From a virus: 29,118 nucleotides of DNA. Positions within the stretch are counted from its first letter, which is position 1. The number at the start of each line of letters is the position of its first letter. Both the position numbers and the translations under genes were made by a program. The stretch is taken from positions 1 to 29,118 of the IMG/VR virus record IMGVR_UViG_3300007540_000072; one strand, 5' to 3'. Shown here piece by piece: positions 6,501-25,961 of the stretch. The notes below the pieces were generated by a model. That model did not search any database. It saw only the letters and a program-made list of their open reading frames with translations, and was not told the DNA's origin.

Positions 6501-9500
6501 TCTGCTCAAGATGGCATGACTCGTAGTCAGCATGACAAAGCCTTGATATCTAATATACTCTATGATTTAAGTATGAATGGACAAACAATTTATGACATTC
6601 CTAAGTTTCTTAAGTCTGATGCTCAATTCGTAAAAGGCTCTGCTGGATTTAATAAACGTGCTCAAATATGGTTTACAAATTCATATCCTGCTGATGCTGA
6701 ATTTATCAAGTCTAATTACATTAATGATGCTGGACAGTCTCTATTAAATAAGAACGGTAAGTATAACACTATTATGGTTAATGACTTACCTGAGCATATC
6801 AGAAATAAGATGGATAAAAAGCATCCAGATTATGATAAAGATTTTACTTTTGCTAAAAATTCATTAGATAACATAGAGAATCCAGAAAATGTTGATGGCG
6901 CTATTATAGTTCCTGATAATTTACTTAATGTAATTAATAAAGACTTTGGGGTTCCTAAATCTGGCCAGAATAAGTCATTCATAATCTCTCCCGATAGAGA
7001 GCATGGAACATTACTTGGTAAGTATATGATGCATGGAGCAGGCCCAGAATTAAGTAAAATGATGGAATCTCAAGGGCTTCATATGATTATGCAAGAAACT
7101 GCTGTTAAGCAGCGTGGTACACGTGAAATAGGTGATTATTTTATTAAGGATGGGGAGCTTGATATACAAGCAAAAACTTATGAAATAAGCCCTGAAGATG
7201 TTAAAGGTTCATATGGCGTATATGGTAATGACCACTTCTTTGATACACAAAGGCTACCTAAACAAGTTATGCTTAATATGCTTGAGTCTAGCTTTAATCC
7301 AATGAGTCAAGATGTTATTAATGAGTCTTTTGATAAGATTATAGGCAATCGCTGGAATGGTGAACCAGAGTTTCAGAATAAGCTAAAGAATTATTTAGAA
7401 GATTCGGCAGAGGGAATAGAGCCAAGCTCTAGAATACCTAACTTAATTAAGAACATTGAAAAGATACCAGTCTTTGACCTTGTAGAGGCTGTGCGCTCTG
7501 AAAGCTCTCCTCAGTTAGCAGAAGCATTGTATCAGAAAATGCTTAAGGTTAATAAGGAAAATGTAGCTATTGAGCATAGGGATGGTGATATTAATTCAGG
7601 GCAATACAAAGAATATCTAACTGAATTAAATGAGTTTAATAGTATTACGGACCGGTTGATTAAAAATGCTACTGCTATAGCAGAAGAAGCTAGAAGCGCT
7701 GGAAGTAATATTACTGCCGATTCAATCTATAATCATAAGTTTATTCGAGACTTTAAAGCTAGGGCTGTACAAAGCTTTTTAATTAATACTGCAGCTAAAC
7801 CTTTTATGGGTAACTCTGGGGCTGCATATATGCGTCCATATGATAAAGCTATGCGTATCAATCTTGATAAGGCTAATGAATTGCTTGATTTAAATCATTT
7901 GAATGGCATTAATAAAAATGATGAAATATTCTTTTTAGATAATTTTCATAAAAAAGTGAAAATATATTTAAATGATGCTAGAGGGTCAGAGTATAAAAGC
8001 ACCCTAGGTGAAGTATTTTCTGACTATTCTAAGCTTCAATCAAAAAAGCGTAATAAAGCTGATAATGAGCGTTTAGCATATTTAGAAGAAGTTTTAACTG
8101 CTGCTACAGTAAGAGTGCCAATGGATTCAGTATCAGGCATGCGTATACTTAAATTTGGTGGCTTTACTGGTAGAGATGGGCATGGCATATTATTACATTC
8201 TAAGGCAATGAGAGCAGAAGGTGGAGCCGACCTTGATGGGGATAAAGCCTTCTACTATTTTGGCGGCACTCGTGGTATGTCTAAAGATATGATGCAAGAG
8301 TTTCATAAGAATAAAAAAGAATTTGAATATACTGATGCTAAAGGTGAAATTTATACTAAGGATAATAAAGAGGCTCTAATTAATCAGGATATTACTATAG
8401 CTGGGGTAAAGTATAAAAAAGGTACTCCTGTCAGGGAACTACTTATTGCGCGCGCAGAAACTGAGCAAGATAAAAATAAAATGGCATTAGCTGAAAGTTC
8501 ATTAAGCCATTATGCCCCCTCTGAACGTATACGTATATCTTCAGCTGCAGTAGATGGGCGTAATCAATTAGGTCCAGCAGTTTCTAATTCTCAATTAATG
8601 AAAGGTGCTTTTAATTCAATAGTCGCCTCTGGTGGTACAGATGTACTTAATTTTAAAGATATCTATCTTGGAGATATTGGTGTTACAATTAAAGCTAAAA
8701 ATGATAAGGATAGTGTTTTACTGCAAAGAGATATAAGTAGAGCGCAATTAGGCTTAGCATCTGACCCTATGGATGAGCTTGGTCTCTCTAGTATTAAGTC
8801 ATGGAAGAAGATTCTATGGGACTCGTACTTTGAGGTAATAGATGCCAAGACTAAGGATGGCAAACGAGTTCCTAAGGCTGAATTAGCTGCCCTTAAGGAG
8901 AGATTATCGCAGGTAGATGAGCTAGACTTTAGTTATACTAATTCAGGCTTATTCGGCGATTTTGTTAATCTAAATAAGGGGTTGTGGGGCAGAAATTATA
9001 CGGAAAATAGAGCATTTGATATGTATGAGATACAAGATTTATTAAGCTCTTCAATGAATATTTTAGAACGTAAAGGTGCCTCTAATTCATTTTTACCTAA
9101 AATTGGAAATCTGTTTGTTAATTTAGACTGGTCAGATTCTCCATTTACCCGACTTAACAAGCAAAAACTTTTATATTCATATATCCAGACTAATAATAAA
9201 TTAAAAGCTCGTAAGCCTTTACAGGAACTATTAGGTCGTTCAAGTATGAAAGTTCCGTATACTGAACAGATATCTAATATATTGGAAACTAAGTATAATG
9301 ATAGGGTCTATTCAATTTATCGACCGTCTGATAGAGTAGATGCTGCTGGTAGCGTTGATGTGTTTAATAGAATTATTAAAGGGACTAGATATTCTGATAG
9401 AGCAAAAGGAATTGAAGGTATTTCTGATAATACTACAGATGGCTTTCATTTACGACTTAAAATGCTTAATAAGATGGTGAAGCAGGGTGAAGACTTTATT

Positions 9501-12500
9501 GTTAATGATATTACTGATATGATAACCCTTAATCTTATTGATGATATTATGAAAACTAGCAATATCTCGCCTAAAAGATTTCAGGCTATTTCAGAAATGG
9601 TGGATTATCTTAAAAAGAATAGTTATTTAATGATGCGTGATAGGCAAAATCTTGAAGCTAGATTATCAAGCATCAAAGATAAGCGTATTCGTGAAATATT
9701 CAAAGGGGCTACTGATGAAATATTTAAAGGCGGTAAGGAAGTTAAACCTGGTGAAGACCCAATTAGAACATCTGAAATGGACCAAGTTGCGATTGACCAA
9801 CAAATCAAGCAATTTAGAAAAAAGGCGGGATTAAATAAGGCTGAAAATATGCTCTTTGACCAGTTGATGCTTGGGTCAATCACTAGAGGTACTAAGCTCG
9901 ATAAAATTGAAGCTTTTGAGTCTGAAGCTAAGAGAACTAAAAATAAAATTGCTTTAGATTATATTAAGAATTTAAGAAACTTAAATTCTAAAACAAACCT
10001 TGGTAGGTTAGGGTTTAGCAGCAGCGCTATTAATGATTCATCTGTTCGTTTGCATCTTAGGCGGTATATGGAAATGATGAATGAAAATTATATCCCTCTA
10101 AATAAAACTGAATTAGCATCGCTTGATAAAGCTCTTGGTAATATTATAGATACACCTCCATCTATGCCTAATGTTATATCAAAGATGGCCACGAATACTG
10201 GCTTTGAAGGTATTGACACTAAAGCTAGGCCTACTAAAAATAAAGAGCTTGCAAGCTTGGTATCAGAAACTGCTGTTTTATTAAAAAATCATCCTGATAT
10301 CGTTAAGAAAAAATCTGGTGAAGATTTGAATGAGTTCATTAGAGGATTGCCATTTATAAGAAAAGATTTCGATGCGATGAGTATTGCGGACGTATATAAA
10401 CTCAATGCATATTTAAAGCAGGTCAAGGAAGGTACTATATGGCAAAGAATTAAAGATACCTTTGGTAAGGATAAAAAAGCCCTTTCTTTTAGGCATTACC
10501 AACAATTACCTAGTACAGTCAGTAGAGAGCTTGAGGCTACAGAGATAAACCTTATTCGCAAAGAAGGGTATTTTACTGATGCTAAGGGTGAGTTGCAATT
10601 TGGTAAAATTAAGGTTCCTACTCAATTTATAGATACATTGACCAATAGTATAGGTAGAATGACCGAGATGGGGACTCAGGTTGGAGATAAGCTTGTTAGT
10701 AGATTCCAAGAAAGTCAGTTATTTTATCAAGGTGTTGAAGATGCAGCACGTTTATGGGAAGTTGCTATTAGACAGCGAGAATATGATGGTCGTCATGAAT
10801 TAAGAAGTATCCGTGAGAAGTTAGGTAAAGACCCTAAAGCTACAGAGCGTTCTATTAAATATATGGAACAAAATTTAAAGGATGCTAAGAAAGCAATAGA
10901 CTGGACTAAAACTCAAAATAAAAAATATTTAGTAAACCTCCCTGAAGGTAGAGTTGAGCGGACTGGAAAGCAGATTATAGACAGGATTAATAAAAATTTA
11001 ACTGAATATATGGAAGAAATGCATACCATTATTCGCGGAAGAGAAGAATTTCGTGGCGAGCAATCACCATATTTTATAGAATGGTATGATAAAGAGCAAT
11101 TATCACCTAAATACAATCATACAGCTTTTTTAAAGGATTTAGATACCTATCTTAATGGTCGTGTGCCTTTGCGCTGGAGAAAGGTTATGAAGAGCACTAA
11201 TGAATCAATCCCTAGTATATTTGGTATTGATGGCGTTAGAGCTATGATGCGTGAAATGCATATTGAATTTTTAATGGAAATAGGTAGAAATAAGGGTGGT
11301 GAAGTTGGAAAGAAATTTATTGAAAAGGCTCGTGAATTATCAGATTATCCTGTAAAGGAAACTGGAAAGCTATCCTTTGAATCATATTTCCCAAGAATGT
11401 TCTTTGAACCAGGTGTAGTTAAAAAAGGATTAAAGGCGGCTACACAAGAAATTATTAATGATAAGACGCTTACATCTGAAGCAAGGATTGATAAGTTAGT
11501 TAAAATTCAAAATAAATATAAACGACTTGATGGTGATTATTTCTTTGAAGAAATGGAAGATGGCCCATTATATGATTCTTTAACTAAAGCATTGCATGCA
11601 AAAGAAGAAGTTTCTAGTGAAAGAATGAAAAACTGGTTCAGCCTTGATGCTAGTACAGGTAATATGAGGAGCCGTGAGCATAGTACTGAAGGTTGGAGTG
11701 TTGCTCCTACTTCTGTTGAGGCATATGTTAGGTCATTAAGCAATACATATTTTAAAGGCCTTGCTGGGATGATATCTCGTAATATTGTTTCCAATCCTGA
11801 AACTGGTGTATACAAGAAATTAGTTAATAAGTGGGGGGTTGAGAATGCAGAAGCATGGACTGAATATGCTAAATTATATGTTAATGATGCTTTAGGTAAT
11901 CCTGTAACTATCTCAGAGAAAATGATGAATGACCCTAAAATGGCCTTGAAATATTCTCCATATGCAAGATGGGCAGATAATAGGGTTGCAGACAAACTAA
12001 GTAAATGGTCTGCTAAATTGGGTATAAAGGGGGTTGTTGATAAGGATGGCCAAATTTTAGGCGGAGTTAATGAGTATGATGTAAAAAGATTATCTCAAAT
12101 GGAAGCTAGATTTCAAATGGCTTCTTTGCTTGCTCATCCAAAATCAATGGCTGCCAACCTTATGGGTGGTACATTACATACCTTGCAAAGCTCAGGATTA
12201 AGTGCATTTAGGAATGTATTTAATTATGAATATTTACAAAATATTAATCCAAAGTTAAAAAGTCGCTCTGATGTTGAAGATATGGTAATGGACCATGGAG
12301 TTTTACCTCAATGGATGATATATGAATTAGGGTTGCAAAAAGAATTTCAAACTAATCAAGGTAAAGAAAGCCTTAAAGTTATATCTGATTTCATTAAGCG
12401 TAACCCTAATGCAAAACCAAAAGAATTAACAGAGTATTTAAAATCTATTGGCTCAGGCATTAGCGAAAAGACTTCTAATTTTGCAGCTAAATTTATGACT

Positions 12501-13271
12501 GTACCTGAAAGAAAGCTTCGTACCGATGCATTTATGGCTCATTATATTAAGGCATGGGAATCATTTGGTGGAGCTATTAAAGACCCTAATCATCCATTTT
12601 TAATTGAAATGGCTAAAAAGGGTGTTGAAGCTACTCAATTCCTTTATTCAGCTCCATATAGGCCTGCTTATGCAAGAACATCATTAGGAAAGGTAATGAC
12701 TAGATTCCAAATGTATGCATGGAACTCTGTTAAGCTACGTGGTGATGTGATGAGAAGACTGGAAGTGGCAGGATATAAGCCTAATAGCCCTGAGGGCAGG
12801 GAAGCAACAAGGTTTATTATGGGCGATATGTTTATGCTATCCTTAGCTAATATATTTGCTTATTCATTATTTGAAAATAACTTACCTCAACCTTATGGAT
12901 GGTTTCAGGATACAGCTGATTGGATTTTTGGAGATGAGAAAGAGCGAGATAAAGCTTTCTTTGGCACCTATCCTACAGCAATTGCTCCATTGCAAGCTAT
13001 TACACCTCCAATAGGCCGTGTTGGATTAATTATATCTAATATATTAAATGGGGATATGGAAAGAGTTACGGATTATTATATACATACAATGTATCCGTTT
13101 GGTAGAATGGGTCGTGATATTTATGGAAAAGGTGGGATATTAGAAGCCCCTATTAGGCTTGTAGATAAGTTAACTGGTATACCTTTGACCCAGATACAAA
13201 GAAAGACAAAAAGAATGCGTGAGCAGGAATCTGAGTTTTTATATCCTAAAGCATTTACAGGTGGATACTAA
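3540..13271 (+). CDS. Giant virion-associated protein (3243 residues) with DLDGD motif, candidate two-barrel RNA polymerase
   Basis: One uninterrupted frame starts at ATG 3540, with AAGGGG about 12 bases upstream, and fills a third of the window. Seen directly: an apolar/amphipathic N-terminal region (about 45-80), a coiled coil at about 630-705, and at residues 1564-1568 the motif DLDGD within GGADLDGDKAFYYFGG. About 40 residues earlier is RVPMDSVSGMRILKFGG. This order resembles the second double-psi barrel of two-barrel polymerases: DFDGD in cellular beta-prime, DLDGD in QDE-1-type RNA-dependent polymerases and DxDGD in the virion-packaged polymerase of crAss-like phages. A hydrophobic stretch lies near residues 3096-3115. 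The position after ejection-type proteins suggests that it travels in the virion and is injected. Polymerase activity is an inference; the rest of the chain is unrecognised and may be a multi-domain 'polyvalent' protein. Confidence 0.85.
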   Translation: MAEQQFQPLWTKEQLKQFTTLYEGRGHLLSPENKQKIEQHSAYYNVPFYEGEGSIIKGIKAAGAGIVDALTLNLFASHEPPKSQSEAIAKNIGHLIGFAPSIMSAPLRALAGASRSRGLAKAAGYIAKQGNKISPSMIIADKATKVADKAANVGLNLVNAEKISTLTGAKKLLLGGPARSIARQSFHLGVASAAGTLPDIIQGNINSTWEAFKGGATAGAAFGVIGETIGPMSHASLKKLFDNPKTAAQGSTALKAISGSLVQGNMAAGHGATNPELVYEYLLGAYFGGHAGTWYKTRAQKLANEIDSQKSGTESQRKEYNEWAKQTGKDLQAHSKVRDEPIEVREALKDLQAMPDFGDPYDNLTGNYKDQLKKEAGLKDVQVTPIEKTPEGFVDKGEYVAGRKVVTVTESALKKDNYIATTGTKGDAVLSNIAGKYGLPSFNYVPRRPPKEIRAGLDRPLSEDQIQEANKHISKASKSLSEVVEQPDGTTKTIPLPLANIDPYKRTLISKNYWAVKNAKEVYLVTELRGDTGNKIVTDSIQKWPAQMAKDLGKDLFVLDSSTNRWHEWNKLSRRFVPLADNASPKKPSDSIALLGGDRATQSRAIRQSIDTWLSSHYKKNPIAGEVARRTRRVQADLIKETQQLNAQKEGIQKVLKDLSQVEQTDDIIAQVKGLESTLDKTNKALELIESQTTKTFIEEAIQEEAKTNEVIAEKLDFDTEITDKEIYKTSIYLSDKYFEEFWGARAGIETSYNQHIKKIEISQAIDDIIYKKHAERGSKKNRSEDATKDIEDYINDKDSQFDKTDFKLPEQARGDIRQAISRYNLGAPVYHLASDGITYYKIPGNNQVSRGGTRKNQLEPEKYIESTYKNAAEAAGLEVKEPFMFTLDHVTRFNKDRGFNVDMELSRFRQQADPAEYRAFIKNVAEKADKEGMYIFGGASDKDRLYFIKYHPQASETVQKNTQLFFNQLSKQGLFTKEDLTLSRKQSAQDGMTRSQHDKALISNILYDLSMNGQTIYDIPKFLKSDAQFVKGSAGFNKRAQIWFTNSYPADAEFIKSNYINDAGQSLLNKNGKYNTIMVNDLPEHIRNKMDKKHPDYDKDFTFAKNSLDNIENPENVDGAIIVPDNLLNVINKDFGVPKSGQNKSFIISPDREHGTLLGKYMMHGAGPELSKMMESQGLHMIMQETAVKQRGTREIGDYFIKDGELDIQAKTYEISPEDVKGSYGVYGNDHFFDTQRLPKQVMLNMLESSFNPMSQDVINESFDKIIGNRWNGEPEFQNKLKNYLEDSAEGIEPSSRIPNLIKNIEKIPVFDLVEAVRSESSPQLAEALYQKMLKVNKENVAIEHRDGDINSGQYKEYLTELNEFNSITDRLIKNATAIAEEARSAGSNITADSIYNHKFIRDFKARAVQSFLINTAAKPFMGNSGAAYMRPYDKAMRINLDKANELLDLNHLNGINKNDEIFFLDNFHKKVKIYLNDARGSEYKSTLGEVFSDYSKLQSKKRNKADNERLAYLEEVLTAATVRVPMDSVSGMRILKFGGFTGRDGHGILLHSKAMRAEGGADLDGDKAFYYFGGTRGMSKDMMQEFHKNKKEFEYTDAKGEIYTKDNKEALINQDITIAGVKYKKGTPVRELLIARAETEQDKNKMALAESSLSHYAPSERIRISSAAVDGRNQLGPAVSNSQLMKGAFNSIVASGGTDVLNFKDIYLGDIGVTIKAKNDKDSVLLQRDISRAQLGLASDPMDELGLSSIKSWKKILWDSYFEVIDAKTKDGKRVPKAELAALKERLSQVDELDFSYTNSGLFGDFVNLNKGLWGRNYTENRAFDMYEIQDLLSSSMNILERKGASNSFLPKIGNLFVNLDWSDSPFTRLNKQKLLYSYIQTNNKLKARKPLQELLGRSSMKVPYTEQISNILETKYNDRVYSIYRPSDRVDAAGSVDVFNRIIKGTRYSDRAKGIEGISDNTTDGFHLRLKMLNKMVKQGEDFIVNDITDMITLNLIDDIMKTSNISPKRFQAISEMVDYLKKNSYLMMRDRQNLEARLSSIKDKRIREIFKGATDEIFKGGKEVKPGEDPIRTSEMDQVAIDQQIKQFRKKAGLNKAENMLFDQLMLGSITRGTKLDKIEAFESEAKRTKNKIALDYIKNLRNLNSKTNLGRLGFSSSAINDSSVRLHLRRYMEMMNENYIPLNKTELASLDKALGNIIDTPPSMPNVISKMATNTGFEGIDTKARPTKNKELASLVSETAVLLKNHPDIVKKKSGEDLNEFIRGLPFIRKDFDAMSIADVYKLNAYLKQVKEGTIWQRIKDTFGKDKKALSFRHYQQLPSTVSRELEATEINLIRKEGYFTDAKGELQFGKIKVPTQFIDTLTNSIGRMTEMGTQVGDKLVSRFQESQLFYQGVEDAARLWEVAIRQREYDGRHELRSIREKLGKDPKATERSIKYMEQNLKDAKKAIDWTKTQNKKYLVNLPEGRVERTGKQIIDRINKNLTEYMEEMHTIIRGREEFRGEQSPYFIEWYDKEQLSPKYNHTAFLKDLDTYLNGRVPLRWRKVMKSTNESIPSIFGIDGVRAMMREMHIEFLMEIGRNKGGEVGKKFIEKARELSDYPVKETGKLSFESYFPRMFFEPGVVKKGLKAATQEIINDKTLTSEARIDKLVKIQNKYKRLDGDYFFEEMEDGPLYDSLTKALHAKEEVSSERMKNWFSLDASTGNMRSREHSTEGWSVAPTSVEAYVRSLSNTYFKGLAGMISRNIVSNPETGVYKKLVNKWGVENAEAWTEYAKLYVNDALGNPVTISEKMMNDPKMALKYSPYARWADNRVADKLSKWSAKLGIKGVVDKDGQILGGVNEYDVKRLSQMEARFQMASLLAHPKSMAANLMGGTLHTLQSSGLSAFRNVFNYEYLQNINPKLKSRSDVEDMVMDHGVLPQWMIYELGLQKEFQTNQGKESLKVISDFIKRNPNAKPKELTEYLKSIGSGISEKTSNFAAKFMTVPERKLRTDAFMAHYIKAWESFGGAIKDPNHPFLIEMAKKGVEATQFLYSAPYRPAYARTSLGKVMTRFQMYAWNSVKLRGDVMRRLEVAGYKPNSPEGREATRFIMGDMFMLSLANIFAYSLFENNLPQPYGWFQDTADWIFGDEKERDKAFFGTYPTAIAPLQAITPPIGRVGLIISNILNGDMERVTDYYIHTMYPFGRMGRDIYGKGGILEAPIRLVDKLTGIPLTQIQRKTKRMREQESEFLYPKAFTGGY

Positions 13272-15569: not shown

Positions 15570-16445
15570 TTAAAATATATACCTAATTGTATTCCAAGGT
15601 ACTATACTGGTATGCTTAAGCTTAAACTTCTTTATGTATTCCTTTTTGTAGAATCTATTGTATCTAATATTAGTGTTACCATATTGAGAAACCTTAGTTT
15701 CCTGTATATCAGGAGTCCATAAGTAGTCTTCACCTTGTATATCATTTTTCTTGTTATATTCATGCATTTTTGGATTATGTGTCATAAATATACATTCAGA
15801 TAGTACATCTTTTTTGATATTATTCCTAACATTATCATTAACAAGCTCAAATAAGTCTTGATAGTCATCAAGCCACCCTGTATAATGCACTATAGGGCTG
15901 TAGTTAATATGCACATCATAACCTGCATCATAGAAATCATTTATTGCCTTGATTCTGTCTATAATTTGACTGGTATTAGGCTCTAGTTTATCGGATAATG
16001 CTTGAGGCATCAGGCTATATCTTATTCTTATCCTTCTATCACCATTTTTATCTCTAGAATCATAACTTAAAAGCTTTCTATTTACATATTTTGTAGCCAT
16101 AGTAGCCATTATAGGCAAGCCACACTCTTTAAAGCAGTTAAATATAAATTCCCAGTCATGGTATTTAGAATGTAATACAAAATCTTCATTGCAACTAATG
16201 TCATAGGTCCAAAATTTGTCATGTGTTTGGTTAGGCGTTTTTGGCCCAAGCATAAATGCATGTTCAAATATTTTATCAAAGATTTGCCCTGGATTATTTG
16301 CAATTGTTAAACCATTAGGTAAGTGTCTACGCATATAGCAATAGCTACATTTGTATAAACATCCAAAACCAAACGATGGTGATATATAATCACTGCTTCG
16401 CCCTGATTCCCTAATTTTCATAGATTTTCTTGTTACATACTTCAT
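15570..16445 (-). CDS. Radical SAM protein, spore photoproduct lyase-like, 291 residues
   Basis: The N-terminal segment contains FGFGCLYKCSYCYMRRH with the CxxxCxxC cluster at C29, C33 and C36, which binds the 4Fe-4S cluster that cleaves S-adenosylmethionine. The surrounding layout (SPSFGFGC, later INYSPIVHYTGWLDDY) is like the spore photoproduct lyase-type radical SAM family found in phages and bacteria. ATG 16445 overlaps the upstream stop (ATGA). The substrate is unknown: repair of UV-damaged DNA or modification of a base or protein are all possible. A Cys well after the cluster (C131 region), used by true photoproduct lyases, is not obvious, so I do not assign that reaction. Confidence 0.8.
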   Translation of the reverse strand: MKYVTRKSMKIRESGRSSDYISPSFGFGCLYKCSYCYMRRHLPNGLTIANNPGQIFDKIFEHAFMLGPKTPNQTHDKFWTYDISCNEDFVLHSKYHDWEFIFNCFKECGLPIMATMATKYVNRKLLSYDSRDKNGDRRIRIRYSLMPQALSDKLEPNTSQIIDRIKAINDFYDAGYDVHINYSPIVHYTGWLDDYQDLFELVNDNVRNNIKKDVLSECIFMTHNPKMHEYNKKNDIQGEDYLWTPDIQETKVSQYGNTNIRYNRFYKKEYIKKFKLKHTSIVPWNTIRYIF

Positions 16446-17506: not shown

Positions 17507-17676
17507 TATTTACTCCATCCTATTGAGGTTGTAAGTTGTAGTTTCCATAAACTAAGGTGTAGTGTAGTGTTAAGGTATTCATCATCGATGTCTCCTGCAA
17601 TACCAATACTTAATATTCTAAAAAAGGTTACGACAAGAGTTTTCTCGTCAAACGCTATATCTAGTAAAAATCCCAT
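17506..17676 (-). CDS. Small protein between primase-helicase and HTH gene, 56 residues
   Basis: Reads MGFLLDIAFDEKTLVVTFFR and ends TSIGWSK. ATG 17676 overlaps the TAA of the primase-helicase gene (TAATG), and its own TAA overlaps the ATG of the helix-turn-helix gene (TAATG). Couplings of this kind on both sides are hard to get by chance. The protein is hydrophobic at the N-terminus but has no clear membrane helix. Function unknown. Confidence 0.6.
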   Translation of the reverse strand: MGFLLDIAFDEKTLVVTFFRILSIGIAGDIDDEYLNTTLHLSLWKLQLTTSIGWSK

Positions 17677-19445
17677 TAGTCTATCTCAACTTTCTCTAAT
17701 CTAAAGCTAGGTCTCCACTCAAGTTGCGCATCAAATAGTTCTCCATCTGTATTTTTAAATAGTTGAACTTTCTTTATAGCGCTTTTAGCTTGACCGTTGA
17801 GGCCTATAACTTTCCTACTGGCGTTTTCAATTGCTCCAGACCCCTTGCCAGCATATAGGTCTAGAACTTCGTTTCTACTATACTCACGAGCTACTTGAGA
17901 TACTTGTATAATAATTAAATCATTATTAACTGCCATATTCGACAGGCTGTGAGAGATATATTTTATCTGCTCATACTCGCCTCGTTTATTAGTTTCGACT
18001 AAGTCAATATAGTCTACAATAACAACAGCTGGTTGTAATGTTTTTATTTTACTTTGTATCTGCTCTAACGTTGGAGCTATAGTCTGTATTACTAAGTGGC
18101 TAAGCTTATCTTTGTGAGCGTCATAAACATCTTCATAGTTTTCAGTTACTTCATCTTTTGATAAGCCTGATACTATCTGTAAGTGCCTACGATGCATATA
18201 CCATGCACTAAGCTCTAGTGATAAGAATAAGGTTGGTATTTGCCAATCAGTTACGATTCTATCTTCAACAAAATCTACACCTAATGCTATATTCTGAGCA
18301 AATGTAGTTTTACTTGAGCCTGTAGGCCCAAAGATAGTTACAAGTTCACCTGGATAGATGATACAATCCATATCTTTAGGTAGATGAAACATCTTCCCTA
18401 AATCAATTGAACGTCCACCAAAATCCGTTGTCATTCTTTCACGAAACTCTTCTTGCAAGTCACTAGCGCTTTTTACATCAATGGTATAATCTTTATGTTT
18501 AAAGTGTATACATTTAGTTTGACAATGCTTAAGCATCAGCTCATCATTACATCCGTATTGATAGCCTTTGTTATAAGTTTGCTCTACTTTATCTACTACT
18601 ACTTTATCATCTAAAGATTTATCATTCCAATGCAACATAGCAACCTTGGTAAATTCTGAAGGTATACCATTACGCCGAAAATGACTAGCAATTCGCATCA
18701 CTGTATTATTTCTATTGCCACTTTGAGGGCCACCATTAAGCATTCTCTGTATACAGGGAACAACCTTGGTGTTTTCAACAGTTTTAGAAAACTCTTGAAT
18801 CCTAGGAGTACTAGTAATAATATACTCCTCCAGTTCTCCATCTCCCATTAACTCTTCGTATGGGAAATCAAGTCTTGGTGTTTTAGCAAGCTCATGTATT
18901 TCAGCAGGAGTCTTATGCATTAGTTCCTTTACAGTTAAAGGAATCTTATGTAATCCTGTTTTCTTATTTACAGTATGTGCAACCCGATAGATTGCAGTCC
19001 TAATATATACCATCTCATCTATGCCAGGTAATAGTTTGGCCATAGTCTGTTTAACAATATAAGGGAGGTCTTCTGAGGGAGCGAAATTAAAGCTTTCATT
19101 AGATAAAATTAAATGATAGCCCGTTCCACTGAAATAAGGTTGTATTGCTGATTTAGGGTGTACTCCGCAATCCTCTAAAGCATGAACACATACTAGTGTT
19201 CGCCTTAAGGTTTCTTCGTCAGAGTTTTGGCCCTTGTCAATATCAACAATAATCTTATCTATGTGTCTTTCGCCATAATAAGAACTGACTGTTCCTGATT
19301 CTTCAATAGCAGCCTTAGCCGCTTCATCATAAAGATATACTGAACGATAAAGCGGTACTTCTGGCTGTATATACTTAGCTAAATCACCCTTCTCTATGAG
19401 AACATTTCTGCTTCTTGGAGAGTTCTGAGCGATTTCTACAAACAT
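17676..19445 (-). CDS. Bifunctional primase-helicase, 589 residues
   Basis: N-terminal primase of the archaeo-eukaryotic type: acidic pair in KIIVDIDKG (D68, D70) and FSGTGYHLIL (about 105-114), the position of the active-site His motif. A Cys/His cluster (C299, H307, C308, C312, H314) may be a zinc or iron-sulfur site. C-terminal RecA-fold helicase of the DnaB group: Walker A GPTGSSKT (373-380), Walker B VVIVDYIDL (474-482), and IIIQVSQVAR as the arginine/glutamine-containing strand. It would unwind the fork and lay primers for the phage genome. Start overlaps the upstream stop. This is the main replication gene here; no DNA polymerase lies in the window. Confidence 0.88.
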   Translation of the reverse strand: MFVEIAQNSPRSRNVLIEKGDLAKYIQPEVPLYRSVYLYDEAAKAAIEESGTVSSYYGERHIDKIIVDIDKGQNSDEETLRRTLVCVHALEDCGVHPKSAIQPYFSGTGYHLILSNESFNFAPSEDLPYIVKQTMAKLLPGIDEMVYIRTAIYRVAHTVNKKTGLHKIPLTVKELMHKTPAEIHELAKTPRLDFPYEELMGDGELEEYIITSTPRIQEFSKTVENTKVVPCIQRMLNGGPQSGNRNNTVMRIASHFRRNGIPSEFTKVAMLHWNDKSLDDKVVVDKVEQTYNKGYQYGCNDELMLKHCQTKCIHFKHKDYTIDVKSASDLQEEFRERMTTDFGGRSIDLGKMFHLPKDMDCIIYPGELVTIFGPTGSSKTTFAQNIALGVDFVEDRIVTDWQIPTLFLSLELSAWYMHRRHLQIVSGLSKDEVTENYEDVYDAHKDKLSHLVIQTIAPTLEQIQSKIKTLQPAVVIVDYIDLVETNKRGEYEQIKYISHSLSNMAVNNDLIIIQVSQVAREYSRNEVLDLYAGKGSGAIENASRKVIGLNGQAKSAIKKVQLFKNTDGELFDAQLEWRPSFRLEKVEID

Positions 19446-20047
19446 TACAGAGCTTCAGCTGATACTACTGGATTGCTTGATTTAGGCTCATCAGTAGCTT
19501 CATTTAAGTAGTTGTTATTCTTCATCCACTTAACATAACTTGCCATCTCTTCCTTACCTTTCTCGGTATTAGGATAGAGCTTAACTAGCATATTGTTGAA
19601 TGTAGTTCCAGTTTTCTTATTAAGAGCTTTATAAACATAAGCTACATAATCTAGCACTGGGTCAGTACCTGGCATGAAGTTACTACAGTAATTAGCGTTT
19701 AAGAATCCTGCGATGTCAGCGATAGGTTTACCATCGTTGTCTTCCCATTCACCTTTAACGTTAAGCCCTGCTTCACAGCCTAGAGCGTCAAATATACGAT
19801 ATACCTTGTCTAATACACCACCTGGGGCAATATTACCTGAACTGTCTTTTTCAAAACCACCAGCTACTTGCATTTTGCGAGTATACTTTGAGTTCTTTAA
19901 AGCAAATTCAATTTCAAGATATACATCAGACCAGTCAAACTCTGATGACCTATCAGTAAACCCTACTACTCCAACTTCACATACACCTGTAAATTTCACT
20001 CCACCAGTATTTTCTGCTGGTTTAGGGGTTGGTCTAAATATAGCCAT
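19445..20047 (-). CDS. Putative single-stranded DNA-binding protein, 200 residues
   Basis: The N-terminal two-thirds are beta-rich (GVKFTGVCEVGVVGFTDR; YLEIEFALKNSKYTRKM), the kind of strand pattern expected for an OB fold. The C-terminus is polar and slightly acidic. It lies between a Sak4-like ATPase and a primase-helicase, with one-base overlaps at both ends, and phage Sak4 genes are often next to an SSB. No diagnostic motif is present, so SSB is inferred from fold pattern and neighbours. Confidence 0.55.
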   Translation of the reverse strand: MAIFRPTPKPAENTGGVKFTGVCEVGVVGFTDRSSEFDWSDVYLEIEFALKNSKYTRKMQVAGGFEKDSSGNIAPGGVLDKVYRIFDALGCEAGLNVKGEWEDNDGKPIADIAGFLNANYCSNFMPGTDPVLDYVAYVYKALNKKTGTTFNNMLVKLYPNTEKGKEEMASYVKWMKNNNYLNEATDEPKSSNPVVSAEAL

Positions 20048-20712
20048 TATTTTCCTTCCTTCTTATAGATTTTGGTCCAATCGAAAGGCATTACTTTACC
20101 ACGCAAATGGTCACAACGACTACCTGCCTCTAAAGCTTTACCTGATTCAAATGAAACCATAAGGTTATCTTCTTCACGAAACATATAGCCAATTGCATCT
20201 GCATTAGCCATAATCTTATTCTTTAATTTACCTGATATATCAAGGCTTTCAGGTTCTATTGCAGTTGAATTATCGATAGGTGAAGCTGTCTTTCTATGGC
20301 CAATTAATATTAAATGGTCACATAATGAAGATAGCTTTTTAATGTTATTCATTACTCGCTCGCGAACTAATCCGAATCCTTTACCAAAAGGTAAATCGTT
20401 TATGCTTTCAATGTCATATTCTTTACAAACATCTTTTTCTGTCCATTCTACTATCTTGTCAATAGTATCAAGTGCAAAGTATTTGTATTCATGACCATCT
20501 GTTGCATCAGCATAAAATTGCAACAGCTCTTCTTTGGAATTGACTGTATGGAAGTAACCATCAAGCATATCACCACCTCGCTCAGTATCGATAATTAAAC
20601 AATTATCAAGCTTACTAAGCATAGTAGTTTTACCAACTTTAGGTGCTCCATACAGTAACATTATTCCTGGGTTTACGGAAATTGCTTTCCGTTTTTCTTT
20701 TTTCAGTGCCAT
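20047..20712 (-). CDS. Sak4-like RecA-fold ATPase (single-strand annealing/recombination), 221 residues
   Basis: Start at ATG 20712 (MALKKEKRKAISVNPGIMLL), which has AAGGAG upstream; an in-frame ATG 27 bases earlier lacks one. Walker A is GAPKVGKTT at 22-30, followed by LIIDTERGG and the Walker B-like YKYFALDTID at about 70-80, then HLILIGHRKTA. This is the layout of phage Sak4/AAA_24 proteins, minimal RecA-type ATPases that promote single-strand annealing with an SSB. It adjoins the putative SSB and primase-helicase. The specific assignment rests on motif order and context. Confidence 0.75.
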   Translation of the reverse strand: MALKKEKRKAISVNPGIMLLYGAPKVGKTTMLSKLDNCLIIDTERGGDMLDGYFHTVNSKEELLQFYADATDGHEYKYFALDTIDKIVEWTEKDVCKEYDIESINDLPFGKGFGLVRERVMNNIKKLSSLCDHLILIGHRKTASPIDNSTAIEPESLDISGKLKNKIMANADAIGYMFREEDNLMVSFESGKALEAGSRCDHLRGKVMPFDWTKIYKKEGK

Positions 20713-20790
20713 TATAGCTCCTTGAATTAAATGGGCCACAACCGAAGTTATGACCCATATTTTGTCCTAAATCACAAAAGTAATATATAG

Positions 20791-21450
20791 CTATCCAGCG
20801 CTATAAACAAGCTTATTATTAGGAAATGTAAAGATAATTTCACTATTAAATTGCTCATTATTCATCACCTTTTTCACTGCATTAGCTATAAATGCACCAC
20901 TCATATTTGAGCAGTAACTAGTAGCTTTTGCATTGCAGGGTTCACTACTTGCTGAATCATCAGAATACCAAGTATTAACATAATCCTGTAATCTAGGATT
21001 TTTAAGTATGTATTGACGATATTGCTCAGAGCCCATACGGCCATCAATCAATAAAGACGGCTTATTACCTCTTTGTAGAGCTATTTTCGCAGCCTCTAGT
21101 CTAGCTTGCATGCTATCAAAGCCTAATATTACTACATCACTCTCATTAAGAGGCTTGATAAACTCAGTGAATAGTCCGAATTGTGTATGCACAGCTACTG
21201 CAGGATTAATTTCCTTTAGATGTCTGTCTAATGCATCAACTTTTCTTTTACCCACATCTCTTATTACATAATGACTTACTCCGATATTCTGTACCTCAAC
21301 TTTATCAAGGTCATAGAGTACAAATTCATCTACTCCCATCCTTGCTAATTGAGTGGCTGCGGAACTGCCAATAGCTCCGCAACCTAAAATATGAAATATC
21401 TTGTCCTGAAAGTCATTTATCAGTCCACTACTTCTTTCATTAAACCTCAA
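20791..21450 (-). CDS. E1/ThiF-like activating enzyme, 219 residues
   Basis: N-terminal Rossmann motif HILGCGAIGSSAATQLARMG (glycine loop 23-28), then the acidic strand end FVLYDLDKVEVQNIG (D47/D49, N55) and FDSM (D112), as in the ThiF/MoeB/E1 superfamily that adenylates the C-terminal glycine of ubiquitin-like proteins. Candidate transfer cysteines are C172 and C180 (EPCNAKATSYC). The zinc-binding CxxC pairs of MoeB are absent, and at 219 residues the protein is shorter than usual. ATG 21450 overlaps the JAMM protease stop. Its partners would be the small beta-grasp protein and the E2-like protein upstream. Confidence 0.85.
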   Translation of the reverse strand: MRFNERSSGLINDFQDKIFHILGCGAIGSSAATQLARMGVDEFVLYDLDKVEVQNIGVSHYVIRDVGKRKVDALDRHLKEINPAVAVHTQFGLFTEFIKPLNESDVVILGFDSMQARLEAAKIALQRGNKPSLLIDGRMGSEQYRQYILKNPRLQDYVNTWYSDDSASSEPCNAKATSYCSNMSGAFIANAVKKVMNNEQFNSEIIFTFPNNKLVYSAG

Positions 21451-22424
21451 AACGGTATCTCCTCTGTTTTATGTTCGATATTTTCATAATAATCATCATC
21501 CCAATAGCTAATTATTGCATCTTCAAGACGCACACCATCAGTAAATGTGCTTACTGCAACATTATACTTTTTTAGCTTAGCATTTAGAGGCTTGATACCC
21601 TTTTCCCATGCATCTAGTGCGTCATTAGAGGTTTTCATTGAATCGCATAAATCAACTAGCTTGATTAAATCCTTATCTGCCTCATTTTTTACATTTTGAG
21701 GTATAGATGTAAAATTTACATGCTTTTGAGTATAGCTATTGAAATAAACACCACTTGAAATATCACCATAACCTCCATATCCGCCATAATAAGAGCCATC
21801 TGAATAATCATTTTCTCTATGATATCCATATGTTTTATTATTAACGCCTAATGGAAGGTAAGATTGTTCTCCAGGTTTAGCATATGTAAAAGTTGACGCA
21901 CTTTTAGTGCATTGTTCTTTAACTTCAGCTAATATTGCATCATCAATGTCTTCATCTACTGTTAGGAAGTTAAGTTCAACATTCTCTTCATGAAGAAATG
22001 GCTGAAAGAATTGAATCCTTAGCTTATATTCCTTCTTCAGATTAACAACCAATGAAACAGTCCAGTCTTTTGACGGCATATCTAATATAGTCGAATTATC
22101 AGTACCTGACCAAAATGCATCCATTGTATGATGGCTATGCCACCAACAAAAGCGTACATCTGGTCCATGTTTCATTGCAGTTTTTGCATAATACTGCGCT
22201 AATGCAGTTTCATCAAGGGTGCATAGGCTTCCTGATACAGTTTGTTCCATAATTACAGGTGTTTTTAGTACAAAATCACCTTCTTCATCTGGAACTACTA
22301 TCATTTGACCTGCAATCTCTGATTTAAACTCATTATATGATGCTGCAGCATAATTTATTACTTTCTGGAAGTCATCGGGATGTATCCAGAATTTAGTATC
22401 TTTATTTGCTTCTTTTTTAGTCAT
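21447..22424 (-). CDS. JAMM/JAB metalloprotease, 325 residues
   Basis: All JAMM ligands are present: E36 (SEIAGQMIV), then WWHSHHTMDAFWSGTDN with H96, H98, S106 and D109, i.e. HxHx7SxxD. JAMM proteases cleave ubiquitin-like proteins after their terminal Gly, maturing the precursor or removing it from targets. The small ubiquitin-like protein of this cassette ends GGK, so removal of one Lys would expose GlyGly. C-terminal residues about 180-240 are Tyr/Gly-rich, then helical. Start has AAGGAG; the stop overlaps the E1-like start. Only the zinc domain is recognised; the C-terminal half is unassigned. Confidence 0.88.
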   Translation of the reverse strand: MTKKEANKDTKFWIHPDDFQKVINYAAASYNEFKSEIAGQMIVVPDEEGDFVLKTPVIMEQTVSGSLCTLDETALAQYYAKTAMKHGPDVRFCWWHSHHTMDAFWSGTDNSTILDMPSKDWTVSLVVNLKKEYKLRIQFFQPFLHEENVELNFLTVDEDIDDAILAEVKEQCTKSASTFTYAKPGEQSYLPLGVNNKTYGYHRENDYSDGSYYGGYGGYGDISSGVYFNSYTQKHVNFTSIPQNVKNEADKDLIKLVDLCDSMKTSNDALDAWEKGIKPLNAKLKKYNVAVSTFTDGVRLEDAIISYWDDDYYENIEHKTEEIPF

Positions 22425-22432
22425 GTTTCTCC

Positions 22433-24118
22433 TTATAACCTGTTTGCAAAAGTAATTATTTCATTTTCTGGTGTTCTACCAGCTCTTTGACGAGCAATGT
22501 GATTAACTCGAATGATTTGAATAGATGTTAAGTCAAAATCTAAACCTAAATCATCTCTTATATATCTATAATAAATCTCTTCACATAACTTGAAGTGCTT
22601 TATAAAGATACTCGCATTATATTCTTTTAGGTCCATAATGTCTATAAATATCTTAGAAAACTCTGAGTCAGATGCAAAGCTATTACCCATACCCTCTACA
22701 CCAAATATATCTAATAAATCTCTATTAAGGTCTCTTTTAACCTTGTTAGCAGCTTGGACATAAAGTCTATTTAGATATTCTTCAAAATCTTCCATATCCT
22801 CGAACCTACTGAAGTTGATATTTGAGTATTCTAGCCATTTTTCCATAACGAAATGGTCCCATGCATGTTTTTCATCATCATCTGAAAATGAAAGAACCGT
22901 TGGCTCTTCTGTCCATCCTAGATATATATTACAGTCTTTGATAAGTTGGCAATTACTGCAGAATGTTTCTATGAAATCTTCTTTAGTAATATCATTATAG
23001 TCTTCAACTTGCATACTACATAAGCTAGTGCTTCCATGCCAATCATTATCATTAACCTGCAAAGGCTTGCCAAATACACTCTTATAATATCTGTTTAATG
23101 GATTGATATCATTTTTTGGATAGTATGATGACCATCTTCTAAGAAGTGGTATAGCAGGTATTATATTGCCAGATGCAAATAAAGATAAGATTCTCTCTTC
23201 AAATGTTCCAAAGCATGTATTACCTGTACCATATTCACTAGCACGTCTTCTTATTGATGCAGTAGGATTACCTGTTACAAATGGGTGCCTTAATGCTTGA
23301 TATTTAGGCCATTCATATGTTAATCCAGCAAAATGTTGATTATAAGCAATATTTATATCACCATTAGCAACTCTTCTAGATATAGTAATTGCATCTCGAA
23401 TGCTAATGCTTTGAGTTACCAATAAATCGCCATATTCATAGGAATAAGTTGTATCCCCTCTGCTATTAGTTATATCTACTACTATATCCTTAATAGGAAC
23501 TGCAATATTTATAAACCATTTGCTTGGGTCATCGACTAAATTAACACTTTTAATATTTAAGCTAGAATTAGTAATACGTTCTACATTACCATTTCTATCC
23601 ATATGAGGTAATGCTGGTGTACCTGCTGGTAAATTTTCAGCATAATTCCAACCCTTATTAAACCATGGAATTTGAGATATCTCTACTTTAATATCATCAT
23701 TGGCTAATACAGATTGATTTAAGTTATTTACCAGTGTATCTAATGCCAGTTGACCTTCTACATCTTCAGATTGAAAGAATTTAATACCTTGCTTTCTAAT
23801 CTCTTTTAGCTGGCCATCTAATTGTAATGCTCTAGCTAATACTCCATTCAGCTCATATCTTTCAGAGCTAAATACAGCTTTTATTGTTCTAGCTGATTCT
23901 AGCCTAGGTTGTGCAACACGTCTAGATAGTTCTTTAAATTTTGCATAACTACCTTGCTCCCATCTACCTGATTTAATAACCTTGATATCAGTTTGATACT
24001 TTGAGTTAAATTCGTCAAGCTTGTCTAAAAATGGACCTGTTAGTCCAAGCATATGCACAGCGATAGGAGGCGCTTCTATTGTGCTATGTTTTTCTTTTAA
24101 TTCCAATGTTTCTTGCAT
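22433..24118 (-). CDS. Large E2-like protein of a ubiquitin-like conjugation cassette, 561 residues
   Basis: Start at ATG 24118, six bases after GGAG. The central region reads KYQALRHPFVTG and, about 20 residues on, GTGNTCFGTFEERI (Cys at about 302), the HPxV...G..C.G pattern of bacterial E2-like (UBC-fold) proteins in ubiquitin-like operons. It is followed by the typical helical SLFASGNIIPAIPLLRRW. The N-terminal 270 residues (helix-rich then beta-rich) and the C-terminal 200 (CSNCQLIKDC then helices) are not recognised. A CxxCx5C cluster near 387-396 could bind zinc. It lies between the ubiquitin-like gene and the JAMM gene. E2 identity is inferred from one motif plus context. Confidence 0.6.
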   Translation of the reverse strand: MQETLELKEKHSTIEAPPIAVHMLGLTGPFLDKLDEFNSKYQTDIKVIKSGRWEQGSYAKFKELSRRVAQPRLESARTIKAVFSSERYELNGVLARALQLDGQLKEIRKQGIKFFQSEDVEGQLALDTLVNNLNQSVLANDDIKVEISQIPWFNKGWNYAENLPAGTPALPHMDRNGNVERITNSSLNIKSVNLVDDPSKWFINIAVPIKDIVVDITNSRGDTTYSYEYGDLLVTQSISIRDAITISRRVANGDINIAYNQHFAGLTYEWPKYQALRHPFVTGNPTASIRRRASEYGTGNTCFGTFEERILSLFASGNIIPAIPLLRRWSSYYPKNDINPLNRYYKSVFGKPLQVNDNDWHGSTSLCSMQVEDYNDITKEDFIETFCSNCQLIKDCNIYLGWTEEPTVLSFSDDDEKHAWDHFVMEKWLEYSNINFSRFEDMEDFEEYLNRLYVQAANKVKRDLNRDLLDIFGVEGMGNSFASDSEFSKIFIDIMDLKEYNASIFIKHFKLCEEIYYRYIRDDLGLDFDLTSIQIIRVNHIARQRAGRTPENEIITFANRL

Positions 24119-24130
24119 TGTAATCTCCAA

Positions 24131-24371
24131 ATTTGCTAAAAGGGGACGGACCAGGCAGGGACCCTCGGGTAATGATGTGGAAGAATCCCCTAATAGCGTT
24201 TCAAAACTGCAGAATAAGACGGATGGAGGGAGTTGTTGCGGGACCTCTTGGTACGTGAGTAATCAGCGGACTATATGAGTATCCAAAAAGGATTAATAGA
24301 CGTGTTATTTCATGGACTCTGGGTTGCGCGTAACTAATCGCAAAGATTTCTTATTCTACTCCAAAAGCGAT
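24131..24371 (-). other. 241-bp intercistronic stretch, GC-richer, no gene found
   Basis: Lies between the ubiquitin-like gene and the E2-like gene. It is clearly richer in GC than its neighbours (for example GGGACGGACCAGGCAGGGAC at about 24142-24161). Leftward there is an open frame of about 55 codons but with no plausible start codon. The 3' end holds the GGAG of the E2-like gene. A structured leader or RNA is possible; I see no long stem. Confidence 0.4.
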
Positions 24372-24596
24372 TTACTTACCGCCTTTTACTCCTTCAGAAA
24401 CGTGCGAAACCATCGCATCTTCTGTTAGAGGTGTACTGTCAACTGCAATTACCTCACCGACTGCTATAGAACCGGTTAAACCCAATTCTTCACGCAATTC
24501 ACCTACGGTTGTTGCTGTTGTTTCAGTATCTACAAAATTAAGACCACCATTCATTAGTTTAATAGTGATTCTTGTGATAGTTGTTTCTATTGCCAT
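24372..24596 (-). CDS. Ubiquitin-like beta-grasp protein, PRTRC protein C/ThiS-like, 74 residues
   Basis: ATG 24596 has AAGGAG upstream. The pattern is a beta-grasp: strand pair at 6-22 (TRITIKLMNGGLNFVD), helix VGELREELGL, strand GEVIAVDS, and a final strand DAMVSHVSEGVKGGK. It ends GlyGlyLys, so the activated C-terminus would be Gly-Gly after loss of the Lys. It resembles PRTRC protein C and ThiS-type proteins. With the E2-like, JAMM and E1-like genes just downstream it forms a complete conjugation set. It starts only 76 bases after the repeat array ends. Confidence 0.8.
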   Translation of the reverse strand: MAIETTITRITIKLMNGGLNFVDTETTATTVGELREELGLTGSIAVGEVIAVDSTPLTEDAMVSHVSEGVKGGK

Positions 24597-24671: not shown

Positions 24672-25095
24672 TGACAAAGTCATTAGATTTGATTAGTTGT
24701 CGAAAATTGATACATTTTATGCAGATGAGTTTATCAGCCAGTATGATACATTCATGTTCTGTGGGTTTATGTCGTCTTCTGATACATTACTTGAAGATGG
24801 AGTTATTCTCCTCCTTGATACATTCTCTGATTTTGGGATTCTGCTAAATCATGATACATTGGGCTTAGGTGGTGGTCTTGCCATAGCTGATACATTAAAG
24901 TGCCAATGGATTACTCCTTCTCCATGATACATTTGCTCTTCGTGGGATTCTTTCTCCGCCTGATAAGCCCCACATTTCTGCAGGGCTTGATACATTTGTT
25001 TATAGTGAGTTTATCTCTTAGGCTGATACATTTCCAGGGTGTGGGATGCTACGTCATAGTGATTCACTTCATTCATTTGGGATTCTACGTTCTGG
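24672..25095. repeat. TIGR-like array: twelve 36-bp units of two conserved and two variable 9-mers
   Basis: Read on +, each unit is block A (TGATACATT) + 9 variable bases + block B (consensus TGGGWTTMT) + 9 variable bases. A starts at 24708, 24744, 24780, 24816, 24852, 24888, 24925, 24988 and 25024 (all exact), with degenerate copies at 24672, 24961 and 25060. B starts at 24726, 24762, 24798, 24834, 24870, 24907, 24943, 25006, 25042 and 25078, plus a weak copy at 24690. Steps are 36 except 37 after 24888 and 27 for the unit at 24961, which has lost about nine bases. The variable 9-mers are all different. Period 36 with two 9-base guides per unit is the reported architecture of TIGR arrays (tigRNAs), and the adjacent gene is of the matching protein class. 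Confidence 0.9.
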
Positions 25096-25961
25096 TGGTT
25101 TAATCCTAATTTAGCCTCATGATACGGTGGGAAAGCTGGTAATCCTTCAATAGCCTTCCAATTCGTATACAAGTCAATGATGAACATCTTAATCATATAG
25201 CGTATAGCCATATTATGCTTATGTCCCTTAGATTTCTCTACATGAGCTGGCATATTATCTAAACGATGTCTATAATCGTCATAAACCTTACGATAAGGAT
25301 TATTTAATGCACCTGCTCTCAAGAATGAACTACCTAATACACCTACTAATTTAGACTTTAAGAATGGATTAAAAGATATACCTTGCTTGGTCTGCTCTTT
25401 ACCATCTTTATCTAAATAAGCTGATTCTACTAAATGTTCTTTCTTGCGAGAACGTCCAGCACCATTGACTACATCTAAACCTGCATATTTCCACATAGAA
25501 CTACTATATTTAGCTTTATGTATGTCAAATTCAGTTATCATTACTGATGCCATTGCTGGGCCAACACCTTTAACACCTTTTAAATAGTCTGTCCATATAG
25601 GATAGTCTGCTAATACCTTCTCTAATTGCTTAAAATGACGTGCTTCACTAGATTCTAAACCAAAGTATTGGTCTACTAATATAAGCTCAGTCATTGTTGA
25701 GATAAGGCCATTTTCAGCCTGACGTACCTTTCTAGGCAGTCTTACTACTCCTGCTGTTAATAATCTATACTCTTTTCTTAAAGTATCTAATATATTAATA
25801 GCTTCTTCAGGTGATTCTTCAGGTTCTTTTGAGCCTGGTTCAATACCTAATTTACATTTAAAATTAATAACTATACGATTACCAGTTGCTTGGCGTAGCT
25901 TTTGTATATCATATACGCCTCTAACAATGGTCTTTAAATTACTTATCATTTCTGTTGCCAT
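25011..25961 (-). CDS. Tas-like/IS110 Tnp-domain protein (no nuclease domain), 316 residues
   Basis: ATG 25961 follows AAAGGAG. Residues 125-165 read YLKGVKGVGPAMASVMITEF and MWKYAGLDV, the helix-hairpin-helix and GL(D/A) signature of the C-terminal domain of IS110-family transposases (Transposase_20). GRSRKKE near 171 sits where IS110 enzymes carry their Ser. The N-terminal DEDD RuvC-like domain is missing: residues 1-120 are helical. IS110 proteins bind a bispecific guide RNA, and Tas proteins of TIGR systems have a related RNA-binding (Nop) core. With a 36-bp dual-guide array starting inside its own 3' end, I read it as a nuclease-less Tas-like protein. The last 28 residues or so are encoded by array units. 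A stand-alone transposase remnant is the alternative. Confidence 0.8.
   Translation of the reverse strand: MATEMISNLKTIVRGVYDIQKLRQATGNRIVINFKCKLGIEPGSKEPEESPEEAINILDTLRKEYRLLTAGVVRLPRKVRQAENGLISTMTELILVDQYFGLESSEARHFKQLEKVLADYPIWTDYLKGVKGVGPAMASVMITEFDIHKAKYSSSMWKYAGLDVVNGAGRSRKKEHLVESAYLDKDGKEQTKQGISFNPFLKSKLVGVLGSSFLRAGALNNPYRKVYDDYRHRLDNMPAHVEKSKGHKHNMAIRYMIKMFIIDLYTNWKAIEGLPAFPPYHEAKLGLNHQNVESQMNEVNHYDVASHTLEMYQPKR

Follow-up and report, generated by a model that had tools for sequence, protein, structure and literature searches.

A predicted ubiquitin-like conjugation cassette at the head of a phage replication module

Conjugation of ubiquitin-like proteins (Ubls) in prokaryotes has so far been linked to defence against phages and to loci of cells and plasmids. 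Bacterial operons with a Ubl, an E2-like protein, a JAB protease and an E1 were already predicted in 2006 by Iyer et al. (PMC1779556), whose operon type 6d, in the sections of that paper used here, groups Ubl, JAB, E1 and E2 with a helical protein. The phage example in those sections is the tail pair of lambda/T1, formed by the Ubl-fold protein TAPI and the JAB-NlpC protein TAPK, which belongs to a tail module and, unlike the cassette described below, comes without E1 or E2. Another four-gene set, the ISG15-like defence operon BilABCD, is characterised in the portion of a review on which we draw (PMC11354881) by a two-domain Ubl, a two-domain E1 and a CEHH motif in its E2, with the JAB maturing the Ubl. 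As for a phage-borne complete Ubl/E2/JAB/E1 set, no description was found in the open-access literature searched, with bioRxiv outside the search, and other work may exist.

The DNA considered here, referred to as the window, is the whole of a linear IMG/VR virus record of 29,118 bases (IMGVR_UViG_3300007540_000072), and its linear form and size indicate that it is probably a fragment. A sequence-only reading of this DNA had proposed a four-part Ubl/E2/JAMM/E1 set, and all the corresponding ORFs were indeed found between 24596 and 20791, on the minus strand:

24372..24596, minus strand: Ubl, 74 aa, beta-grasp, C-terminus VKGGK (one residue after GlyGly)
22433..24118, minus strand: E2-like protein with a putative UBC fold, 561 aa from ATG 24118, with Cys302, HPFV and a four-Cys segment
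21447..22424, minus strand: JAMM/JAB protease, 325 aa, ligands E36, H96, H98 and D109 plus S106
20791..21450, minus strand: E1/ThiF-type adenylating enzyme, 219 aa, TTG start

The last three genes are compactly arranged, with a gap of 8 nt between E2 and JAB and a 4-nt overlap between JAB and E1, and the Ubl gene lies 253 nt ahead of the E2 gene. No minus-strand terminator-like site was detected in this 253-nt gap, and promoter-like matches occurred at chance level (29 observed versus 30.3 in shuffles). In view of this spacing, the single transcription unit that had been assumed is a presumption. The length of 561 residues given earlier for the E2-like protein was right, since GGAG precedes ATG 24118; an upstream TTG at 24130, which overlaps this GGAG, would extend the protein to 565 aa. 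Judged against a near relative (L006), the four genes are under purifying selection, with dN/dS values of 0.08 for the Ubl, 0.32 for E2, 0.20 for the JAB and 0.09 for E1. An Rfam search gave no match at gathering level.

When compared with the described systems, the window set shares with operon type 6d, as presented in the sections cited above (PMC1779556), the organisation in separate genes, a standalone Ubl with a terminal Gly, an E2-like protein with a conserved Cys, a JAB and a ThiF-type E1. The differences from that partial description are that type 6d occurs in bacterial and plasmid loci whereas the window set lies in a phage replication module, that the window E2 is far longer and has HPFV before the Cys as well as a four-Cys segment, and that there is little room for the JAB-N domain of type 6d in a JAB whose Prok-JAB match begins around 30 residues from the N-terminus. 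Similarity to Bil- and PRTRC-type sets had been noted in the sequence-only reading, and membership in either is not supported. For PRTRC, which we take to be the same as type 6d, the NCBIfam models stayed far below their cut-offs (14.1 of 101.8 bits for PRTRC_A, TIGR03735; 21.3 of 144.75 bits for PRTRC_ThiF, TIGR03736), the other PRTRC models gave no match, and neither the Ubl nor E2 matched any of them, so that this assignment was rejected. In the window ORFs covered by the Pfam and PHROG scans, which are those of a probable fragment and do not include every small ORF, there was no ParB-related gene. BilABCD, in the portion of the review consulted, likewise has Ubl, E2, JAB and E1 as four genes; however, the window Ubl is a single beta-grasp domain of 74 aa, its E1 of 219 aa has one ThiF match and one adenylation domain, its E2 is of the HP..C.G type, and the context is that of replication. 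No obvious CEHH pattern follows Cys306 (565-residue numbering) in the window E2, as judged by motif rather than by alignment with Bil E2s. With the two-domain Ubl and the E1 of two adenylation domains absent by length and motif, membership in Bil was rejected too.

The CBASS pair Cap2/Cap3 shows the same ThiF/E1 chemistry and a JAB partner, but in the window E1 and E2 are separate genes and there is a dedicated Ubl; moreover, the Pfam and PHROG scans of window ORFs revealed no cGAS-like gene, next to which the E1-E2 fusion of CBASS type II would be expected. In favour of a counter-defence role, in which the phage E1, E2 and JAMM would upset a ubiquitin-like defence of the host (CBASS Cap2/Cap3 or Bil), e.g. 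by removing host conjugates or redirecting them, the window E1 is similar to the E1 portion of Cap2-type proteins according to the PADLOC models (best E 6.8e-18). Such a role seems decidedly improbable to us: a full private set with its own Ubl and invariant catalytic residues exceeds the needs of an inhibitor, and the JAB is only weakly like the PADLOC defence JAB model (E 0.028). The solved structures nearest to the Ubl model and to the JAB profile come from the ubiquitin/Rpn11 system of Caldiarchaeum subterraneum, which is cellular and archaeal, whereas neither a proteasome nor a RING E3 was found among the window ORFs scanned.

The relationship with this archaeal system was reached from two sides. 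For the Ubl, which like E2 went unmatched in Pfam, PADLOC and NCBIfam and matched PHROGs no better than by chance, the AF2 model (pLDDT 79.9, pTM 0.63) had Caldiarchaeum ubiquitin as its best Foldseek match (E 2.5e-3, probability 1.00), and VIA-align gave a best Z of 7.7 (rmsd 3.4, 66 aligned), so that model and both comparisons agree on the beta-grasp fold that had been predicted. For the JAB, the profile matched among PDB sequences the Rpn11-like protease of Caldiarchaeum (E 5.2e-6), and thus two parts of the cassette point to two parts of one known ubiquitin system. The match of the JAB to Pfam Prok-JAB was below the cut-off (E 5.4e-4, 20.3 of 25 bits); the JAMM Glu, two His, Ser and Asp (EXnHSHX7SX2D) were nevertheless present in 67/67 unique members and invariant in a 50-row alignment, in agreement with the claim of a JAMM protease with all its ligands. 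Similarly, the E1/ThiF-like assignment was corroborated by a strong match to Pfam ThiF (E 1.1e-21) and, among PDB sequences, by matches to TcdA, UBA5 and MccB. The candidate catalytic Cys of E1 lies within EPCNAKATSY, and this Cys and the adenylation residues were invariant in 58/58 sequences, as well as over 43 rows that include the E1s of crAss-like phages and Fpv1.

A GlyGly was present in all 70 unique Ubls, 68 of them recognised by pattern and two by eye. In the 68 parsed sequences, the tail after GlyGly comprised 0-3 aa in 51, 6-30 aa in 14 and whole fused domains of 103-126 aa in three (L119, L152 and L168). Such tails and domains need removal before activation, in keeping with maturation of the Ubl precursors by the JAMM protease.

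In the E2-like protein, HPFV (residues 282-285 in the 565-residue numbering) precedes the Cys that is Cys306 in that numbering and Cys302 in the 561-residue one. This Cys is kept in 94/94 members and Pro283 of the HPxI/V motif in 93/94, and each Cys of the four-Cys segment (C371/391/394/400 in the 565-residue numbering) occurs in 89-92 of the 94. The sequence-only reading had placed an E2-like region around Cys302, and structural comparison moderately favours a UBC-like fold there: the best VIA-align match of the E2 model, itself of intermediate confidence (mean pLDDT 67.6), was the UEV domain of TSG101, a UBC fold, with a Z of 5.5 that falls within the range where the program warns of a mere common arrangement (rmsd 3.8, 130 aligned, model residues 14-354). 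This UEV domain made up eight of the ten best VIA-align rows, and a UBE2D2 fusion reached Z 3.7. UEV domains themselves are not known to carry the catalytic Cys. Foldseek alone against PDB returned nothing at E <= 0.001, the E2 profile found only chance matches among PDB sequences with hmmsearch, and no match to the window E2 was obtained by tblastn in 50,697 phage records. In BFVD, Foldseek retrieved six matches at E < 1e-14, all of them without names, and A0A1B0WLX5 (420 aa, E 5e-3), whose length is that of the E2-like protein of phage Fpv1.

Sequence comparison with bacterial proteins offers a stronger bridge than these fold Z values. Three MAG contigs from a genome-collection scan keep the same gene order, with the E2 motifs HPHISQDGTPCLG, HPHISDGSICWG and HPHISNNDFCLG, and when the phage E2 profile was aligned with these bacterial E2s, of the HPHIS...CLG type, the HP and the Cys fell in register (hhalign probability 89%, P 2.3e-6). 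The MAG contigs carrying Ubl-E2-JAB-E1 sets are labelled Deltaproteobacteria, Calditrichaeota and Verrucomicrobia (L095-L097), and a ParB-like gene was recognised by eye in L096, about 0.7 kb after E1. As to the size of E2, the protein has a helical N-terminus, the four-Cys segment and a variable helical C-terminus, which bring its total length to about 410 to 690 aa from phage to phage. The extra parts expected of a large E2 with its own target-recognition domain are thus there; the recognition role is conjecture.

Viral contigs were scanned from two seeds. The JAB-seeded scan gave 94 relatives, 80 of which were kept (69 unique JABs), and the scan seeded with an E1 alignment that included crAss-like E1s gave 435, of which 80 were again kept (57 unique E1s in new loci). 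These numbers refer to unique protein sequences and not to independent lineages, as near-identical contigs remain, and the two seeds are not fully independent, several E1-seeded loci lying on contigs shared with the JAB scan. Leaving out the loci in which the contig end was too near the seed gene, E1 was found in 63/63 JAB-seeded loci whose contig extends far enough downstream, and E2 in 42/42 that reach far enough upstream. A Ubl was seen in 30/36 of these loci with a greedy gene caller and in 36/36 once the misses were resolved, five through Ubls present in the HMM results and the sixth (L054) by eye, as an HMM-invisible ORF ending in DDKTGGKIAFEEYLSA. Among E1-seeded loci the JAB was present in 45/45, E2 in 29/29 and the Ubl in 16/16. 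The order was always Ubl-E2-JAB-E1 on one strand, using HMMs built from the JAB-scan relatives, and being kept in both seed directions it led us to reject a chance assembly of four ORFs. With a shared order and invariant catalytic residues on many phage contigs, the association of the four genes is more than chance.

This association also bears on a sulfur-carrier function, in which the Ubl would be thiocarboxylated in the style of ThiS/MoaD for cofactor or tRNA modification. The best general matches of E1 are ThiF-type models, and the Ubl model also resembles ThiS/MoaD folds in VIA-align; yet the UBC-like protein with its invariant Cys, unneeded for sulfur transfer, was there in every testable locus of both scans, and no sulfurtransferase was found among the neighbours scanned. 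The ever-present E2 made us reject a sulfur-carrier operon, a reading to which we give hardly any credence. A working Ubl-conjugation system is, on the sequence evidence, very probable. Two further lines were unproductive: as a guide to the phage class, the terminase family PF03237 was sought in 24 longer contigs and had three weak matches, none above the cut-off, and in an E1 tree the plasmid E1s sat on very long branches, so that the tree was used neither for rooting nor for origin.

Downstream of E1, the genes of the window belong to DNA replication and recombination or lie among them:

20047..20739, minus strand: Sak4-like ssDNA-annealing ATPase (AAA_24); PHROG 124 E 7.7e-35, AAA_24 E 2.9e-28
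19445..20047, minus strand: 200-aa protein flanked by the annealing and primase-helicase genes; without match in Pfam or PHROGs
17676..19445, minus strand: primase/DnaB-like helicase; DnaB_C E 4.5e-15, PriCT_1 E 4.1e-5

An ssDNA-annealing gene follows E1 in 58/59 testable loci (26 ERF and 32 Sak4-like), and a primase-helicase lies downstream in 36/37. ERF and Sak4-like proteins are unrelated annealing families at one and the same place, and a place kept while the family varies suggests a functional neighbourhood. The 200-aa neighbour forms a cluster of 13 members, with a second cluster of about 180 aa (45 members) in the same position. As judged from gene order, the cassette is at the head of a phage replication module, and its position beside ssDNA-annealing and primase-helicase genes suggests replication or recombination targets, a proposal absent from the sequence-only reading. 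According to the parts cited of two papers (PMC11354881, PMC10286901), bacteria use four-gene sets made up of a Ubl, an E2, a JAB and an E1 for defence against phages, and by the same chemistry the tag could be placed, in a Bil-like way, on virion proteins, either those of the phage itself to control assembly or those of a competing phage for superinfection exclusion. We find this unlikely, given that in those 58 of 59 loci the cassette sits in the replication/recombination module and not beside recognised structural genes, in a strict gene order across many contigs.

Overall, we lean towards a complete, working system by which a presumably tailed phage attaches its Ubl to proteins, most likely those of replication/recombination, and removes it again. 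The Ubl would be trimmed after GlyGly by the JAMM protease, its C-terminal Gly would be adenylated by E1 and then held as a thioester on the E1 Cys, and the Ubl would be handed to Cys302 of the E2-like protein. Since the cassette lacks a separate E3, the choice of targets most likely resides in the extra parts of E2, so that the Ubl would pass to targets picked by its helical and four-Cys parts, and the tag could be removed again by the JAMM. While genes, order, catalytic residues, folds (that of E2 moderately), Ubl precursors and context can be read from the DNA, we infer the reaction steps and the targets. A cassette heading a replication/recombination module has the proteins of that process, from phage or host, as likeliest targets, and the tag may time or tether DNA replication or recombination; granted a working conjugation system, replication targets are a tentative proposal, with a chance that we put a little short of even.

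A second lineage of the cassette occurs in crAss-like phages and in the Flavobacterium phage Fpv1. In the cultured Bacteroides intestinalis phage crAss001, gp79 is a beta-grasp-like protein that has a KSG site and gp78 is E2-like (HSHV...PCTG), both as identified by eye; gp77 is a JAB and gp76 a ThiF protein. The order E2-JAB-E1 was kept in 7/7 genomes opened (L090, L091 and L098-L102: crAss001, five further crAss-type phages and Fpv1), with a Ubl-like gene ahead of E2 in six. In the seventh, cr106 (L101), the ORF before E2 has no beta-grasp part and an HNH gene is found there; our guess is that its Ubl is split. The JAB gene of Fpv1 (L091, 5671-7963) is broken up by an ORF on the opposite strand (6187-6936), which may be a homing gene or an intron. 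The crAss001/Fpv1 cassettes are like that of the window in the order Ubl-E2-JAB-E1, in a replication neighbourhood and in homologous E1 and JAB (hhalign probabilities of 99.9% and 96.5%), but their Ubl has, unlike the window one, a long C-terminal part after KSG. Profile matches between the E2s and between the Ubls of both lineages were not significant in hhalign (1.3% and 9.7%), and their equivalence is therefore based on order and motif. The crAss-group cassette is bordered by a DNA primase gene on one side and, after an intervening gene, by a uracil-DNA glycosylase gene on the other, and slightly upstream gp84 of crAss001 is Sak4-like (PHROG 2872, E 3.5e-35); no significant similarity was obtained when the profiles of the 200-aa neighbour and of the annealing genes were compared with those of crAss001 gp81 and gp84. 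Among the 50,697 phage records, relatives of gp78 were found in 74 and of the crAss001 E1 in 82. The main texts of a crAss genome survey (PMC7886860) and of PMC11348598 returned no ThiF, ubiquitin, JAB or metalloprotease by word finding.

It is conceivable, and we say so with reserve, that two or more distant phage lineages, cultured crAss-like phages of the gut among them, tag replication/recombination proteins with their own Ubl, with E2 acting as its own E3. Equally guarded is the parallel with the ubiquitination and SUMOylation of PCNA, of which a replication-coupled viral Ubl signalling would be an analogue in spirit. If true, a viral set inside a DNA-replication module would reverse the link of prokaryotic Ubl conjugation with cells, plasmids and defence, and protein tagging would become a core viral process; it would also explain genes of abundant gut phages that are labelled only as 'hypothetical', 'metalloprotease' or 'thiamine biosynthesis'. 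Both crAss001 on Bacteroides intestinalis and Fpv phages on Flavobacterium offer cultured models for direct target finding.

Some other observations concern the surroundings of the cassette and its relatives. At 24707-25086 of the window, the 9-mer TGATACATT is repeated at steps of 36 nt (also 72, 73 and 63), and another motif, similar to TGGGATTCT, follows 18 nt later. These iteron-like repeats, between a transposase-like ORF and the Ubl gene, are possibly a replication origin. The ORF in question (25011-25961, 316 aa; PHROG 4285 transposase, E 1e-36; IS110-type Transposase_20 below cut-off) overlaps the repeats with its 3' end. A plus-strand ORF of 3243 aa (3540-13271) has no Pfam or PHROG match. 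At 15570-16445 there is a radical-SAM protein like spore photoproduct lyase, whose cluster (12 members) is represented in other loci close to the cassette or in the E2-JAB interval, as checked in L028. Finally, the three Ubl fusions (L119, 637-1191; L152, 2288-2878; L168, 2713-3336) are reminiscent of the fusions of ubiquitin with ribosomal proteins, and the fused part of L168 weakly resembles DUF7303 (E 9e-5, below the cut-off).
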